Source of the DNA: Desulfitibacter sp. BRH_c19
GTDB lineage: Bacteria; Bacillota; DSM-16504; Desulfitibacterales; Desulfitibacteraceae
Assembly: GCA_001515945.1 (NCBI GenBank)
Contig: LOER01000011.1
Coordinates: 1-64,000, forward strand
Length of the DNA stretch: 64,000 nucleotides
Direction: 5' to 3'
Every line of letters starts with the position of its first letter. Position 1 is the stretch's first letter. Both the position numbers and the translations under genes were made by a program. This document shows, in pieces, positions 7,005 through 12,450 of this stretch. Below the pieces are notes generated by a model. It was given only the letters and a program-made list of their open reading frames with translations. It was not told where the DNA came from and made no database searches.

Positions 7005-7117
7005 ACGTCAACCATATCAGGTTAATATTTGAAGCTTTGGCTGGAAGATTTCAATAGGCAGATAAACCCTGCCTATTTTATTTTGTACCATCAGAAGACA
7101 AGTTTTGTTTTACTAAA

Positions 7118-7168
7118 TATAGACATCCAAAACGAAGTTTCAGACATAAAAAGCGAGGATTGAGACAT
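7118..7168 (+). promoter_or_regulatory. Triple 9-bp direct repeat, candidate LytTR operator array 1
   Basis: Three 9-mers (TATAGACAT at 7118, TTCAGACAT at 7139, TTGAGACAT at 7160) are spaced exactly 21 bp start to start, with 12-bp spacers. This is the known geometry of LytTR-domain regulators such as AgrA (two 9-bp repeats, 12-13 bp apart). It lies about 74 bp upstream of the YvrJ-type gene. The likely binder is the LytTR regulator encoded at 9904-10653; that is inference. Confidence 0.7.
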
Positions 7169-7241
7169 GAGACAAAGGAATAAAAGTAAATTTATGGAAG
7201 TTAATTTTAAAGGAGAGATTAACGCTGGAGGAGGTGGTGAA

Positions 7242-7403
7242 ATGAATGGGATCAATGAATGGCTTAACGCTATTGGAAATGTTGGCTTCCCTATTGCTAT
7301 AGCCATATATCTTCTAATGAGGTTTGAAAAGAAAATTGATGTTCTAAAACAAAGGGTTGATCAACTAGGACAAGCAATCCGAGATCATACAATTGGCAGG
7401 TGA
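7242..7403 (+). CDS. YvrJ family small protein
   Basis: A 53-aa peptide with one hydrophobic helix (NVGFPIAIAIYLLMR, about 12-26) followed by a charged amphipathic tail. The NVGFPI...YLLxRxEKK pattern is that of the YvrJ family, whose function is unknown and which resembles small holin-like peptides. The start ATG at 7242 has a very strong GGAGGAGGTGG ribosome site; a longer reading from 7167 begins inside the operator repeat and is not credible. The repeat array upstream places it in the presumed Agr regulon of this locus. Confidence 0.75.
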   Translation: MNGINEWLNAIGNVGFPIAIAIYLLMRFEKKIDVLKQRVDQLGQAIRDHTIGR

Positions 7404-7463
7404 TAATAATTATATTTAATTGCATAAAATTAGAAGGAAATCCCATAAACGTCACGAATTGTA

Positions 7464-7469
7464 TATAAT
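7464..7469 (+). promoter_or_regulatory. Candidate -10 box of the riboswitch promoter
   Basis: A consensus TATAAT lies about 14 nt before the first conserved bases of the c-di-GMP aptamer, where a transcript containing the whole aptamer would start. No clear -35 hexamer is visible, so the promoter may need an activator or be weak. Confidence 0.45.
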
Positions 7470-7479
7470 AACAATATTT

Positions 7480-7557
7480 AAATAGGGCAAAGCCATCGAA
7501 AGGTGGTGACGCAAAGCTATGGGTCTAAAGCTATAAGCTATGACTGCCAGGTTGCAT
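7480..7557 (+). ncRNA. Cyclic di-GMP-I (GEMM-I) riboswitch aptamer
   Basis: The conserved GEMM-I core is readable in order: GGGCAAAGCCATCGAAAGG (with the GAAA tetraloop), GGTGACGCAAAGC, the tetraloop-receptor-like side TATGGGTCTAAAG, and the closing strand GACTGCCAGG. It is followed within 10 nt by a terminator hairpin, then by the Agr-like operon beginning at 7748. Bases CCAGGT (7547-7552) at the aptamer 3' end can pair with ACCTGG (7583-7588) in the terminator, an alternative fold that would let ligand binding favour termination. The on/off direction is inferred. Confidence 0.92.
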
Positions 7558-7563
7558 TAATAA

Positions 7564-7604
7564 AAGGTTGTTCATCAGGAGTACCTGGAACAGCCTTTTT
7601 ATTT
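7564..7604 (+). terminator. Riboswitch-linked intrinsic terminator
   Basis: Stem AGGTTGTTC (7565-7573) with GAACAGCCT (7588-7596), extended by CAGG/CCTG inside, then a T-rich run. Because it sits between the c-di-GMP aptamer and the quorum-sensing operon it is probably the expression platform. Confidence 0.88.
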
Positions 7605-7644
7605 TTTAATCTCTATTTTACACATTAAATATCCTATACGAAAT

Positions 7645-7695
7645 TTCAGACATTGAAAAGGAGGTTTTAGACATTAAAAGCGAGGATTCAGACAT
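7645..7695 (+). promoter_or_regulatory. Triple 9-bp direct repeat, candidate LytTR operator array 2
   Basis: TTCAGACAT (7645), TTTAGACAT (7666) and TTCAGACAT (7687) are again exactly 21 bp apart with 12-bp spacers. Spacer sequence is also partly shared with array 1 (AAAAGCGAGGA). It lies between the riboswitch terminator and the first gene of the Agr-like operon, as expected for autoinduction by the operon's own LytTR regulator. Confidence 0.75.
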
Positions 7696-7747
7696 GACAG
7701 AAAGGAATGGGTTGAGGAATATCAAATAATTAGGGGGTGAGATAAAA

Positions 7748-8215
7748 GTGGATAAAATGCCATTAGTAGCTGTATTGTTAATATCTATACCAGAAGAAAT
7801 TATGATTTCGGCTCTTGGACTTATGCTGTTTGGAATTAAACCACCCATTGGAAAGTTGGTGCTAATAGGTGTAGTACAAGCAACAATTTCATATTTTGTT
7901 AGAATGCTACCTATTATTTTTGGGGTTCACACTTTGCTGCAAGGACTATTATTTACAGTAGTTATCTGGTTAGTTTTACGTGTACCCTTTAGATTTGTCT
8001 TAGCAGCAATGCTGGTAAGCATATCAATTTATACAGTAATTGATGCAACTTTTGTACCAATGCTTTTAGATATCACGGGCATACCTTTAGAAGTTATTTT
8101 AAATAATGCAAGATTGCGGATACTCTTCTTTTTACCCCAGGGGGTAACCATGTTACTTGTTGTTTTACTTGTTTACTTTTTTGACTTCAGGCTTATAAAT
8201 TATAAGTTTCTATGA
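7748..8215 (+). CDS. Membrane protein, candidate receptor half of a split AgrC
   Basis: A 155-aa very hydrophobic protein with about five transmembrane helices and no soluble domain. I do not recognise a named family. It is the first gene of the Agr-like operon and sits 28 nt before a histidine kinase that has only two transmembrane helices. Ordinary AgrC receptors have six or seven helices fused to the kinase, so together the two proteins could form one receptor; this is inference. Start GTG 7748 follows GGGGGTGA with good spacing. Confidence 0.55.
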   Translation: MDKMPLVAVLLISIPEEIMISALGLMLFGIKPPIGKLVLIGVVQATISYFVRMLPIIFGVHTLLQGLLFTVVIWLVLRVPFRFVLAAMLVSISIYTVIDATFVPMLLDITGIPLEVILNNARLRILFFLPQGVTMLLVVLLVYFFDFRLINYKFL

Positions 8216-8243
8216 AGTATTATAATTAATGAGGAAGGTGAAA

Positions 8244-9146
8244 ATGGATACTATTAATAGAGCATTTCCTATAATTATTATCATTACATTTCAACTGATG
8301 ATATTAGCACTTCTAAATTTAAGTAGTTTTATTTCAGCACAGGGAGTATTTATCGCAGGGACACTAACTAGTTTTATGTACCCCATGAACATTATAATTG
8401 GCATTTTGACAATAATTTCAATTGTACTAGTTCGTCGGGTACTGGAGGTGACAGAAGAAGAGGTAAGAAAGCAGGTACAGTTAGAAAATATTGAAAATCT
8501 TGAAAGTTTAATTACTACCATGAGGGTACAGCGTCATAACTTCAATCACGAGCTACAAACTGTTTATGGACTTTTGGCAGTAGATGAATATACTGAAGCA
8601 AAAAAATATCTAGAAGAAACCATGTCAGAAGTAGTTGTAACCAATAATCTTATTAGATTAGATGATCTTGGTGTGAGTGCACTCCTACATGTCAAGAGCA
8701 GTCAAATGGAAAGCATGGGTATTAAATTTGACATAAATATACAAACAAAAATACAGAAATTCCCCCTAAAAACCCATGAAATTAATCTTATTCTATCAAA
8801 CCTTTTGGATAATGCCATTGAAGCATTAAAATCAAGAAAACTTTCACAACAACCTACCATAAGTCTAGACCTTGCCAGAGGAGAAAACAATTATGTTTTA
8901 TCTGTTGCCAATGATGGACCAAGTATTCATGTTAAAGTAAAAGAAAAACTCTTTTTACCAGGCTTTTCTACAAAAACTAAGAACAGAGGCATGGGACTAT
9001 ATATTGTCAAGCAAATTATAGAAAAGTATAATGGCACAGTTGTTGTTAATTCTAATTCCAACTGGACCATGTTTATTATACAAATTCCCACAGCAGGGAG
9101 GAGAGATAATGAATCTTCGTTTGCTATCTCTAAAGCTAGCACATAA
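8244..9146 (+). CDS. AgrC-type (GHKL) sensor histidine kinase
   Basis: Kinase of a peptide quorum-sensing system, 300 aa. Two transmembrane helices (about 7-30 and 38-62) are followed by a coiled stretch and the dimerisation/phospho-acceptor helix with QRHNFNHEL, His98 being the expected phosphorylated residue as in AgrC. The ATPase domain has LSNLLDNAIEAL (N box), the G1-like ANDGP, and GMGLYIVK (G2). Start ATG 8244 is chosen because GAGGAAGGTGA lies just upstream; an ATG at 8229 overlaps that ribosome site. The 3' end overlaps agrB by 38 nt. Confidence 0.88.
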   Translation: MDTINRAFPIIIIITFQLMILALLNLSSFISAQGVFIAGTLTSFMYPMNIIIGILTIISIVLVRRVLEVTEEEVRKQVQLENIENLESLITTMRVQRHNFNHELQTVYGLLAVDEYTEAKKYLEETMSEVVVTNNLIRLDDLGVSALLHVKSSQMESMGIKFDINIQTKIQKFPLKTHEINLILSNLLDNAIEALKSRKLSQQPTISLDLARGENNYVLSVANDGPSIHVKVKEKLFLPGFSTKTKNRGMGLYIVKQIIEKYNGTVVVNSNSNWTMFIIQIPTAGRRDNESSFAISKAST

Positions 9147-9762
9147 TCTTGGTAATAAACTAGATTATGACCAGGACTCTGTAGATGTGTTAAGGTACGG
9201 TTTTGAAGTAATAATAACAGGTTTAATAAAAGTGGTTATTCTTTTTTCATTGGCAAGTTTACTAGGTATTCTCCCTCATGTTTTAGTTATCTTTGTAACT
9301 TCAGGTATTTACCGCTTACTGTCAGGGGGAGTACATTTAGCTACATATAGTCGTTGTTTGATTTTTGGTCTGATAATTTTTATTGCTATGGGAAAGATAT
9401 CCCAAAACTTTACCCTGATAGCTTTACCTACTATTATTACCTTACTAGTTTTTGTAACTTTAATCAGCCTCCTTATAAGTTTGAAATGGGCTCCTGCGGA
9501 AACAGAAAACAAACCCCTTTCCGATGATGAACAACCTAAACTTAAAAGGCTCACGATTATCTGGATTTTTATATGGTCAAGTCTAGTGAGTATATGTCTT
9601 TTAATATTTCCAATAAGCCAGATTAATTCACTCATAATAGGCAGTATCTTTGCCCATGTAACCCAGGCCTTTAGCCTAACCCCTGCAGGATATAGGGTTG
9701 TCGGCTTTATAGATAGATTAATGGGCAAAATTTTAGCGAAAGGAGGAGAAGTAAATGTTTAG
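9109..9762 (+). CDS. agrB: AgrB-type accessory gene regulator processing protease
   Basis: Integral membrane cysteine endopeptidase that cleaves the C-terminal tail of AgrD and helps cyclise it. The 217-aa protein shows the family hallmark SGGVHLATYSRC, with catalytic His76 and Cys83 seven residues apart as in known AgrB proteins, plus about five hydrophobic helices. Start ATG 9109 follows GGGAGGAGA. It overlaps the kinase gene and ends 5 nt into agrD, so translation is coupled. A cytoplasmic loop (about 130-147) is unusually acidic and proline-containing. Confidence 0.93.
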   Translation: MNLRLLSLKLAHNLGNKLDYDQDSVDVLRYGFEVIITGLIKVVILFSLASLLGILPHVLVIFVTSGIYRLLSGGVHLATYSRCLIFGLIIFIAMGKISQNFTLIALPTIITLLVFVTLISLLISLKWAPAETENKPLSDDEQPKLKRLTIIWIFIWSSLVSICLLIFPISQINSLIIGSIFAHVTQAFSLTPAGYRVVGFIDRLMGKILAKGGEVNV

Positions 9763-9889
9763 TAAAATGAACAGAGCTATTTTAACTCAATGTGCTGCTA
9801 CTGTGATGCTTATTGCAGGATGGGTAGTACAACCAGCTAGTTTCGTAACCTGGTATCAGCCGGAAGTTCCAAAAATGCTAAGGAAATAG
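9755..9889 (+). CDS. agrD: AgrD-type cyclic lactone autoinducer pre-peptide
   Basis: A 44-aa precursor. The N-terminal amphipathic/hydrophobic helix (1-26) is followed by the predicted signal core Ser-Phe-Val-Thr-Trp (29-33) and the AgrB recognition tail YQPEVPKMLRK (34-44). The xQPExPKxLR tail directly after a five-residue ring is the arrangement of clostridial AgrD peptides such as C. perfringens AgrD, where the core starts with Cys. Here Ser29 replaces Cys, so the ring would be a lactone, not a thiolactone. AGGAGGAG lies 7 nt before the ATG, which overlaps the 3' end of agrB. Confidence 0.88.
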   Translation: MFSKMNRAILTQCAATVMLIAGWVVQPASFVTWYQPEVPKMLRK

Positions 9890-9903: not shown

Positions 9904-10653
9904 ATGAAGGTCTTAATAGTAGAAGATGATCCCAAGATGAGGCTAATCCTAAAAAAAAGCCTAACAAATATCCCTGGAACAGAGGTTATTGGTGAGGCTG
10001 TTAATGGTACTGAGGCTGTGGAAATGACAGAAGCTTTAAGTCCACAGGTAATATTTATGGATATTGACTTGCCTGAAAAAGATGGATTTAAAGCTTCACG
10101 AGAAATTCTAGACATCAATCCCGAGATTTTTCTAGTTTATGCAACAGGTTTCAGTAACTATATGCAAGAAGCTTTTGAACTGTATGCCTTTGATTACCTC
10201 CTAAAGCCTTATAAAATTGAACGAATAAAGGAAACCATTGAGAAAATAAATTATCTGTTGAAACTCAAAGAAAGGGCAAGATCCAGGGATGTAAAACCTG
10301 AGCATCAAATCACAAATTCTAGAAAAGTAGCGCTTAAGGTTGACCGTAATCTGGTGTTTGTTGATGTCGAAAAGATAATTTTAGTGGGGAGGGAGAAAAG
10401 AAAGACGATAATAGTTACTAGCGATACTAAACAGATGAGCACTTATGAAGCATTAGATACGCTAGACAAAAGAATTGATAAAAACAACTTTTTCCGTGCT
10501 CATCAAAGTTTTCTAATCAACCTGGATATGGTAGCCGAAATCCAACCTTGGTCCAGAAGTACCTACCTGGTGATCTTCAACAATACCAAAAAAACGGCAT
10601 TTATGACAGAAGTGAAATACAAGATTCTACAACAAAGATTTAAACTAGAGTAA
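9904..10653 (+). CDS. LytTR-family response regulator (AgrA-like)
   Basis: DNA-binding regulator at the end of the Agr-like operon, 249 aa. The receiver domain (1-118) has VEDD, the phospho-acceptor Asp53 in FMDIDLPEKDG, and LKPYK. A linker (120-140) leads to a LytTR domain (about 143-247), with the FFRAHQSFLINL segment typical of the fold. It lies 14 nt after agrD. LytTR regulators bind paired 9-bp repeats, and two arrays with that geometry stand upstream of 7242 and 7748. Confidence 0.92.
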   Translation: MKVLIVEDDPKMRLILKKSLTNIPGTEVIGEAVNGTEAVEMTEALSPQVIFMDIDLPEKDGFKASREILDINPEIFLVYATGFSNYMQEAFELYAFDYLLKPYKIERIKETIEKINYLLKLKERARSRDVKPEHQITNSRKVALKVDRNLVFVDVEKIILVGREKRKTIIVTSDTKQMSTYEALDTLDKRIDKNNFFRAHQSFLINLDMVAEIQPWSRSTYLVIFNNTKKTAFMTEVKYKILQQRFKLE

Positions 10654-10671: not shown

Positions 10672-10719
10672 AGTTGACATGAAACGATAATTTTAGACTT
10701 AAAATGAGGACTCAGATAT
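10672..10719 (+). repeat. Degenerate third copy of the LytTR-type repeat array
   Basis: AGTTGACAT (10672), TTTAGACTT (10692) and CTCAGATAT (10711) resemble the 9-mers of arrays 1 and 2, but spacing has slipped to 20 and 19 bp. Flanking text (AAAATGAGGA before, ATAGAAGGGAAT after) is also related to the earlier copies. No gene follows on the plus strand before the bidirectional terminator, so this looks like a decayed duplicate. Confidence 0.45.
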
Positions 10720-10872: not shown

Positions 10873-12450
10873 TTAGCTAATCAATTTTTTCTTAATCTCC
10901 TTAATGAGCTCTTCAGTTTCCTGGTATTTTTTATCTGAGATTAGATTTTTGCCAACAGAATAAAACTGCCTCATCAAACTATCTAACTGTTCATCTAAAT
11001 CTACTTCTTTATCGCGAACTTCATGGGATAGACATAAAGGTTTAGCCTCTGTTGATAGAGGATATTCTTCAAGGTAACAAGGAATATGGGTTTCGATTTG
11101 GTAATCCTGTTCAATTAGTGATTTAAGTGTAGAGCTTTCTTCTAGTTCTCCATGAACTAAGAAAACCAAATCTGGCTTATTAGTAATATTACCTATCCAC
11201 TTTAGAAGGTCCTCCTGGTCCGCATGGGAAGAATATCCTTTGATGCTTTCTATTCTGGCGTTAACAGTAACGTCTTCACCATGAATTTTTACCTTAGAAG
11301 CTCCTTCAAGAATATTTCTTCCTAGGGTACCTTTAGCTTGGTAGCCAATAAACAAAACAGTAGAATTACTTCGCCATAGGTTATGCTTTAAATGGTGCTT
11401 AATACGACCTGCGTCGCACATACCACTAGCAGAGATGATAATTGCTCCACTTCTAATTTTATTGATAGCTTTGGATTCCTCTGCCGTTCTGGTAAATCTT
11501 AAATTATTAATTAATAAAGGGCATTTTCCAGAGGTGCGACCAAAGTCTTGAGTTTCTTCATCGCAACTATCAATATTCTTGCAAAAGATTTCTGTTATGG
11601 CAATAGCTAAGGGGCTGTCCACAAAAATGCTGCTCGGACTTATCTTTCCTGCTTCAACAAGCTTGTTCAAGTCAAAAAGTAAATCTTGAGTTCTTTCTAC
11701 TGCAAAGGAAGGGATAACTAGGTTCCCACCACTTTTAAATGTCTCTTCTATTATTGCTTCGAGTTTACCTGCCCTTGTCATGTCCTCATCATGACTTCTA
11801 GAACCATAGGTGGATTCAATAAGAAGATAATCAGTCTCCTCTAGAAACTCTGGATCATTGACCAAAGGTTTCTCGTAACCACCCAAATCACCTGTAAAAG
11901 TTATTTTTTTAGAACCTTGGGCATTTTTAACCCATACTTCTATGATGGCTGAGCCGAGAATGTGTCCTGCATCTTTGAAGCGGATGCTAATGTTATCGTT
12001 AAGCTTGATCAGTTCATTATATTGCTTACCATCAAAATGTTTTATGCAATCCTCTGCATCTGCGGCGGTATAAATGGGCTCAAGTAGAGGCTTGCCAGCC
12101 CTGAGATTCTTTCTGTTTTTTCGCTCTATTTCCATTTCCTGAATGTGGCCGCTATCAGGAAGCATAACGGAGCACATTTCTTTGGTAATATTAGTGGTAA
12201 TAACAGGGCCTTTATAACCCTTCTTGTAGAGTTTAGGTATACGTCCGCTATGATCGATGTGAGCATGTGTTAAAAGCACCCAATCTATTTCAGCGGGATT
12301 AAAAGGAAAGTCTCCGTAGTTTCTTTCCTTTACCGTTTTATTTCCCTGAAAAAGACCACAATCAACAAGAATTTTTTCCTTAGTATCAGTTGTTACGAGA
12401 TAACAGGAGCCAGTAACAGTTTCAGCACCACCGTAAAAGGTAATTTTCAT
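10873..12450 (-). CDS. MBL-fold beta-CASP metallo-hydrolase (RNA-processing type)
   Basis: A 525-aa cytoplasmic protein with a metallo-beta-lactamase core (motif LLTHAHIDHSGR, about 59-70), GHILGSA (motif 3) and TGDLGGYEKP (motif 4), a beta-CASP insert, and a C-terminal RMMBL segment (YSSHADQEDL, and VHGE). This is the set seen in CPSF/RNase J-like nucleases of the YsH-type, which cleave RNA using two zinc ions. The last 70 residues form a charged helical tail not needed for the core. The substrate is unknown. It is monocistronic with GAGGAGA before the ATG. Confidence 0.88.
   Translation of the reverse strand: MKITFYGGAETVTGSCYLVTTDTKEKILVDCGLFQGNKTVKERNYGDFPFNPAEIDWVLLTHAHIDHSGRIPKLYKKGYKGPVITTNITKEMCSVMLPDSGHIQEMEIERKNRKNLRAGKPLLEPIYTAADAEDCIKHFDGKQYNELIKLNDNISIRFKDAGHILGSAIIEVWVKNAQGSKKITFTGDLGGYEKPLVNDPEFLEETDYLLIESTYGSRSHDEDMTRAGKLEAIIEETFKSGGNLVIPSFAVERTQDLLFDLNKLVEAGKISPSSIFVDSPLAIAITEIFCKNIDSCDEETQDFGRTSGKCPLLINNLRFTRTAEESKAINKIRSGAIIISASGMCDAGRIKHHLKHNLWRSNSTVLFIGYQAKGTLGRNILEGASKVKIHGEDVTVNARIESIKGYSSHADQEDLLKWIGNITNKPDLVFLVHGELEESSTLKSLIEQDYQIETHIPCYLEEYPLSTEAKPLCLSHEVRDKEVDLDEQLDSLMRQFYSVGKNLISDKKYQETEELIKEIKKKLIS

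Follow-up and report, generated by a model that had tools for sequence, protein, structure and literature searches.

The closest described relatives of the locus reported here are controlled by proteins of the LytTR type, among them RcoM and CoxC, whose hosts belong to the Proteobacteria, AgrA of S. aureus, and RgaR and VirR, which are clostridial LytTR-type regulators. We know of no riboswitch in the S. aureus agr system. Sites of LytTR proteins consist of repeats of 9-11 nt, direct or inverse, which are separated by 11-13 bp and usually number two (PMC4847170), and in the LRS operons of S. mutans they lie 4-11 bp upstream of the -35 box (PMC6193735). Systems of the HdrRM type are positively autoregulated through two such direct repeats, whose word varies by lineage while the geometry stays constant, and rely on a membrane inhibitor rather than on a kinase and a signal peptide (PMC6193735). 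AgrA binds direct repeats upstream of P2 and P3, two repeats per site (PMC4227749), while the sites of C. difficile RgaR and C. perfringens VirR also hold two repeats, with critical G residues at -51 and -72 of PspoZ, 21 bp apart (PMC10602386). In the E. coli YpdB site of PyhjX, GGCATTTCAT occurs twice, at a distance of 21 bp in the oligonucleotide as printed (PMC4847170). Triple LytTR operators have been published for RcoM (TTCNNGCA) and for CoxC, which needs all three repeats for efficient binding (PMC11347149). Finally, autoregulation has been suggested to be generally absent from clostridial Agr systems (PMC10602386).

The window analysed is a stretch of 64,000 nucleotides from Desulfitibacter sp. 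BRH_c19 (genome G000), and the features relevant to this report are the following.

7053-7083, + strand: terminator-like inverted repeat AATAGGCAG/CTGCCTATT with a T-rich tract, upstream of array 1 (by eye)
7118-7168, + strand: array 1, three 9-mers in 21-bp steps (TATAGACAT 7118-7126, TTCAGACAT 7139-7147, TTGAGACAT 7160-7168), proposed LytTR operator of the YvrJ transcription unit
7174-7182 and 7194-7202, + strand: putative σH-like promoter after array 1, AAAGGAATA, N11, ATGGAAGTT
7242-7403, + strand: YvrJ-family ORF, 53 aa (Pfam PF12841, 59 bits)
7476-7559, + strand: c-di-GMP-I riboswitch aptamer (Rfam RF01051, 77 bits against a gathering threshold of 35)
7564-7605, + strand: intrinsic terminator belonging to the riboswitch; array 2 follows directly
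7645-7695, + strand: array 2, three 9-mers in 21-bp steps (TTCAGACAT 7645-7653, TTTAGACAT 7666-7674, TTCAGACAT 7687-7695), proposed LytTR operator of the agr-type operon
7701-7709 and 7721-7729, + strand: putative σH-like promoter after array 2, AAAGGAATG, N11, ATCAAATAA
7725-7730, + strand: putative σA-like -10 box AATAAT, overlapping the proposed σH -10 box of array 2
7748-8215, + strand: first operon gene, a 155-aa membrane protein (TM155) without Pfam match
8229-9146, + strand: AgrC-like sensor kinase (SPOB_a and HATPase_c_5)
9109-9762, + strand: AgrB (Pfam PF04647, 131 bits)
9755-9889, + strand: AgrD-like pre-peptide, 44 aa, assigned from its position and a YQPEVPK-type tail
9904-10653, + strand: response regulator with receiver and LytTR domains (Pfam Response_reg and LytTR), proposed to bind the arrays
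about 10673-10719, + strand: decayed third array, cores GACAT/GACTT/GATAT, steps of 20 and 19 bp

The sequence-only reading had described two triple arrays of 9-mers with 12-bp spacers and exact 21-bp phasing, and both are present at 7118-7168 and 7645-7695, in agreement with the published layout of LytTR direct repeats. A search with the triple pattern (up to one mismatch) returned two matches in the 3.85-Mb genome, namely arrays 1 and 2, and none with the control pattern, so that in-phase triples occur only at the regulator locus. The pair pattern TNAGACAT-N13-TNAGACAT matched three times genome-wide, always within arrays 1 and 2 (reversed control: one match), and 60 Markov-simulated windows contained no + strand match of the triple pattern. 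With one mismatch allowed, GACAT-N16-GACAT occurs as a loose pair seven times in the window, a number reached by 6 of 100 shuffles; the triple arrangement, not the loose pair alone, is the unusual feature of the window. In the genus and order of the window the 12-bp spacer AAAACGARGWTT is kept as well, making a 21-bp repeat unit, while in distant lineages the spacer is lost and only the core TTNNGACAW is retained. A site consisting of the 9-mer alone was rejected, as the whole 21-bp unit is kept in the window's order and the core only in distant lineages. Conservation of the spacer within the order exceeds what separate 9-bp sites would need, and may reflect recent descent only.

Since triple operators have already been published for RcoM and CoxC, the arrays would not represent a new kind of operator. 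Like them, the RcoM1 site has three evenly spaced direct repeats, with gaps of 12-13 bp; it is read by a LytTR domain, as proposed for the window, and the RcoM word agrees with TTCAGACA at five of six specified letters. However, RcoM and CoxC control CO oxidation genes and are not response regulators of peptide systems, whereas the window combines a Bacillota quorum-sensing response regulator with a proposed operator before its own operon and an adjoining c-di-GMP riboswitch. Like that of S. aureus, the locus is of the agr type, with a LytTR response regulator and direct repeats upstream of its putative promoters, but AgrA sites differ in their word as well as in having two repeats instead of three. 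The latter difference also applies to RgaR and VirR, with which the 21-bp step is shared in the case of PspoZ, and to the HdrRM type, which is otherwise similar in the putative distance to the -35 box, in the word that varies between lineages on a constant geometry, and in the positive autoregulation proposed below.

The five-gene operon behind array 2 encodes TM155, the AgrC-like kinase, AgrB, the AgrD-like peptide and the receiver-LytTR regulator, and the joint presence of AgrB, an AgrC-like kinase and a LytTR response regulator, based on Pfam, marks it as an agr-type locus. The LytTR part of the regulator matched AgrA structures with an E-value of about 7e-4, its best match being the LytTR structure 3d6w (5e-6). 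The AgrD-like ORF has no Pfam match, and small ORFs similar to it occur in relatives. TM155, which may serve the agr system as an accessory or as part of the sensor, gave a tblastn match at 21 of 22 regulator-family loci; the remaining locus (L107) is truncated by the end of its contig. The position of array 2 before the operon is the same in relatives, according to the locus comparison. Array 1 does precede the YvrJ ORF, as had been read from the sequence, but YvrJ is not the signal peptide, a role for which the AgrD-like ORF at 9755-9889 is the candidate; no paper on YvrJ together with agr was found in the literature search. The small regulon of two arrays suggested there has to be extended by the decayed third array and, in relatives, by a larger set of array-headed genes.

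The third array, located just behind the regulator gene, has in-phase homologs at the same place in G001 and G002, of the same genus, about 27 bp past the last codon of the regulator. Its local alignment score was 49 against array 2 (the maximum of 1000 mononucleotide shuffles being 27) and 39 against the G001 copy, a value equalled by 1 of 1000 shuffles. No gene was seen behind it on the + strand before the convergent gene at 10873-12450, and a perfect 24-bp inverted repeat is present.

We propose, with a probability of roughly 0.8, that the LytTR response regulator of this agr-type locus uses the arrays as its operators. This is what the sequence-only reading had assumed for the regulator at 9904-10653, and it gains support from the LytTR domain, the linkage of arrays and locus in ten of eleven genomes, and the recurrent 21-bp geometry. 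In the proposed mechanism, AgrB would process and export the AgrD-like peptide, which would be sensed by the AgrC-like kinase, leading to phosphorylation of the regulator. As 21 bp correspond to two helical turns, the three repeats lie on one face of the DNA, and the phosphorylated regulator would bind the three cores side by side just upstream of the -35 box. Through array 2 it would activate its own operon, rather than repress it, in an autoregulatory loop, and through array 1 the YvrJ unit. A second input to the agr operon would come from the c-di-GMP-I riboswitch, the terminator of which must be passed by transcripts starting upstream; the use of σH and the direction of the c-di-GMP effect are both predicted.

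Support for activation comes from the position of the arrays, which in the window (both arrays) and in other lineages, sorted by eye, end about 6-7 bp ahead of a -35-like box. A -10-like hexamer (at least five of six letters) was found 28-30 bp past the third repeat in 15 of 32 arrays, seven of which come from the near relatives G088 and G122; offsets 28, 29 and 30 contribute 3, 6 and 9 cells, three arrays scoring at two offsets, and the best three-base bin clear of this peak holds four arrays. The spacer of σH promoters is 11-12 bp long. The boxes reported for σH are RNAGGAWWW and RNNGAATWW (PMC8510167). Of 30 arrays, 23 were sorted by eye into 15 σH-like and 8 σA-like ones; since this was done by eye and seven arrays were left out (the decayed window array, the G002 satellites without AGGA at L046 5251 and 2819, the near-duplicates L086 9839 and L199 14291, L202 12099 with its unclear third repeat, and a second L051 register), these classes are not an unbiased split. 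In the σH-like set, which was picked after looking and in which several rows are paralogs, 14 of the 15 arrays have AGGA within one base of a common offset, 12 of them exactly at it; a GAAT-type word (at least three of four letters) follows at N11 or N12 in 12, other spacings reaching at most two. To this set belong the two in-phase arrays of the window and the arrays before most agr operons (among them those of G002, G003, BRH_c20a, G202, G342, G366 and G049). In G003, G342 and G049 the σH start predicted at the operon array falls in or behind the ribosome-binding site, and σH use is doubtful there for lack of room between the latter and the -10 box. The eight σA-like arrays (two in G041, one of which lies between agrB and agrD, two in G342, and one each in G088, G122, G160 and G202) have a more or less σA-like -35 box 6 bp past the third repeat and, after 17-18 bp, a TATAAT-like box; G002 satellites of the L046 5251 and 2819 type, without AGGA box, look σA-like as well.

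A regulator that binds the arrays but represses would resemble CoxC, for which repression from a triple operator overlapping the -35 box has been described (PMC11347149), and in satellite arrays of G001 and G002 the third repeat indeed reads TTGACA/TAGACA, a -35-like word. The gap before the -35-like box at both window arrays and in other lineages is nevertheless the position of a LytTR activator, which makes repression unlikely.

Relatives were also identified via the motif alone, scanning 398 genomes drawn from the phylum with the triple pattern (up to one mismatch) and with the reversed pattern as control. This yielded 27 matches in 11 genomes, compared to four matches in four genomes for the control. 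Rather than many arrays in places unrelated to the regulator, which the sequence-only reading had named as evidence against itself, ten of the 11 genomes carry an array at the orthologous locus of TM155, histidine kinase and response regulator, with an AgrB match in the fetched stretches. These ten are G000-G003 and six of the seven genomes outside the window's order whose neighbourhoods were fetched; the AgrB match is on the same stretch in five of the six, and in G088 on another array-bearing contig. Five of these distant genomes gave a single full-length alignment to the window regulator, with 43-47% identity, and the regulator of G342 aligned in two pieces of 36% and 53%. The seventh genome, G168, matched with one mismatch and has none of the locus genes in the 16 kb fetched, and its match is therefore taken as chance. 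Some satellite arrays (G202 3251568, G001 contig C2) do not themselves adjoin the operon.

These data also bear on the option that the arrays are LytTR-type operators of a different LytTR protein, either a paralog or an orphan, and not of the regulator at 9904-10653. More than one such circuit may exist, given that the regulator has 33 genome matches in G000, most of them by the receiver part, and that a second 21-bp repeat type, GGCTAAANAGNNA, is present on contig C44 of G000 and on C17 of G002. Against this stand the array at a locus with a regulator of the 9904-10653 type in ten of the 11 motif-found genomes and the lack of in-phase arrays anywhere else in G000, and we consider a different protein quite improbable.

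Starting from the regulator, 79-80% identity was found in G001 and G002 (same genus) and 60% in G003 (same order); in all three, arrays are present ahead of the operon as well as behind the regulator. Additional satellite arrays occur in G002, on the same contig and, in one case, on contig C6. In a whole-collection scan with the regulator alignment, the best 80 of at least 517 relatives were taken as loci. Among these, all seven periodic non-coding stretches at the eight loci with an AgrB match had a period of 21 (periods 12-40 compared), and nine of 27 at the 72 loci without AgrB. When triple repeats in non-coding DNA were counted over 86 LytTR loci, non-agr loci included, 21 bp accounted for 17 arrays in 12 loci, 25 bp for eight in two loci and 20 bp for four in three loci, with at most one array for each of the remaining periods within 13-40. 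In six of the 17 arrays (L134, L139 with two, L153 with two, L157) the cores differ and the LytTR gene is kilobases away, so the geometry alone is not proof of a LytTR site. Bacillaceae-type loci (L131:6759, L137:7459, L143:6724, L163:6968, L139:3830, L134:11498) display 21-bp triples with the cores TGCATCTTAA, TTCGCCAATAAA and TTACGGAATT, some near the LytTR gene and some kilobases off.

At 22 regulator-family loci, of which 19 have an AgrB match and three (L199, L092, L107) have none in the stretch used, 20 periods were compared in the flank zones, which comprise 230 bp ahead of the operon and at most 230 bp behind the regulator. With ties scored as best, a triple period of 21 bp came first in 28 of 42 zones (29 of 43 before the after-regulator zone of L046, an N run, was dropped), comprising 16 of 21 pre-operon and 12 of 21 post-regulator zones; in the other 14 a different period was best, and in L148 and L158 the best 21-bp match is AT-rich and unconvincing. 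The 16 of 21 pre-operon zones bear on the suggested general lack of autoregulation in clostridial Agr systems (PMC10602386). The repeat word varies, being TTNNGACAW-like in many loci, a different one in L092, and GCATTTYA-like in G014, Thermincola, HGW-14 and before the operon of G160. This last word, in the G014, Thermincola and HGW-14 arrays, resembles the printed YpdB word, from which the window word TTNAGACAT differs. The same triple geometry thus recurs at regulator-family loci even with a changed core word, and a changing word on a constant geometry is what would be expected of a protein-DNA contact evolving with its regulator.

Alternatively, the arrays might belong to a general class of 21-bp tandem repeats in intergenic DNA of Bacillota that spread by duplication and have no regulatory role. 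The six arrays with other cores far from a LytTR gene are compatible with this, as are the G002 arrays, which were multiplied together with pieces of the regulator gene. However, the arrays hold a fixed place relative to promoter-like boxes and are restricted to the regulator locus, their core is kept in distant lineages where the spacer is lost, and the sole window array without a downstream gene has decayed, which together make this origin very improbable. Action at the RNA or peptide level through NEVLDIK-like heptads (21 bp being seven codons) is scarcely credible: array 2 would be transcribed if the riboswitch terminator were read through, and the heptad frame is stop-free in array 2, in the translated arrays of G001, G002, G003 and BRH_c20a and inside six of eight distant-lineage arrays, but array 1 has an in-frame TGA, two of the eight distant arrays (L197 14616, L202 8550) contain a stop, open frames of 17 codons are frequent by chance, heptad residues outside the DNA-core codons are not conserved, and no start codon in a shared position was noticed.

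Returning to the regulator as the protein proposed to act on the arrays, the c-di-GMP-I riboswitch in front of array 2 adds a candidate second level of control. A possible antiterminator pairing of CCAGGT (7547-7552) with ACCTGG (7583-7588) would make c-di-GMP an off-signal; folding favours the terminator, without showing a switch. A c-di-GMP-I or c-di-GMP-I-GGC riboswitch was found ahead of the operon array in six of 13 loci scanned, 69-93 bp before it (window, G001, G002, G003, BRH_c20a and G366), and none at the gathering threshold at G202, G342, G041, G049, G160, G122 and Thermincola. Upstream of the riboswitch, the window contains at 7433-7471 a σH-like GAAGGAAAT-N11-CACGAATTG, close to a TATAAT word (by eye). 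A search of mainly open literature, including part of PMC7438776, returned no publication describing triple arrays at agr loci or a riboswitch that precedes an agr operon, which is weak evidence of absence. Taken as a whole, the idea of an autoregulatory clostridial agr family recognisable by a conserved three-site LytTR operator, which would lie behind a c-di-GMP riboswitch and at a fixed step ahead of σH-type promoters, is tentative, and we rate it at somewhat less than even odds.

The genes behind the arrays in other lineages are compatible with an agr-like output, since 12 of the 16 first ORFs listed look exported, with signal-peptide- or lipobox-like starts (by eye). In the relatives, arrays head cassettes with σ-factor-like ORFs at L087 (G002 C6:72411), together with an amidase-like ORF and a YvrJ-like ORF clearly similar to that of the window, and at L088 (G001 C2:598), together with a holin-like ORF, all functions being assigned by eye. 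Fragments of the regulator 3' end or of a LytTR domain precede some satellite arrays (L085, at G002 C21:161-163k, and L197:2439-2708), which suggests that cassettes of array and effector may have been multiplied by duplication across the regulator 3' end.

Behind satellite arrays a leader RNA of about 147 nt was also observed, with a CCCGGGCAAA...TTTGCCCGGG stem followed by a CTCCTTTAC...GTAAAGGAG pairing, which often precedes exported-looking genes (by eye). Examples are the following.

L086:7365-7511, - strand: leader RNA
L047:4279-4425, + strand: leader RNA
L088:727-874, + strand: leader RNA
L211:1202-1343, + strand: leader RNA (G000 contig C44)

In 61 genomes searched, G000 has one copy, G001 five matches and G002 18 copies (26 matches listed, of which eight are weak and on the opposite strand); in the other 58 only matches at E 0.06 or worse were obtained, in seven genomes. 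No Rfam family matched at the gathering threshold, and elsewhere there were weak, chance-level matches only. No covariation was present in the first seven sequences and modest covariation in a larger set; among its 31 distinct rows, which include eight weak matches, seven on the strand opposite a full copy, five pairs changed on both sides, compared to at most three in slid controls, and 15 of 500 shuffles reached five. The second repeat type, GGCTAAANAGNNA, occurs in two copies at L211:1106-1139 (+ strand, G000 C44) and as pairs in G002 at C17:471080-471113, 482332-482365 and 489720-489753, with no match for the control. The G000 pair and two of the C17 pairs stand ahead of the leader RNA, which would fit a further LytTR-like circuit with this geometry but a word of its own.

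The operator grammar described here, consisting of three cores, 21-bp steps and a fixed distance to a -35-like box, is computable, and allows target genes of little-studied agr systems to be proposed from sequence. With the riboswitch before array 2, c-di-GMP may be linked directly to peptide quorum sensing at the level of transcription. If the proposed family is real, a single operon would be subject to peptide quorum sensing, c-di-GMP and a transition-phase σ factor, and exported effectors would be carried by satellite arrays in the form of exchangeable cassettes.
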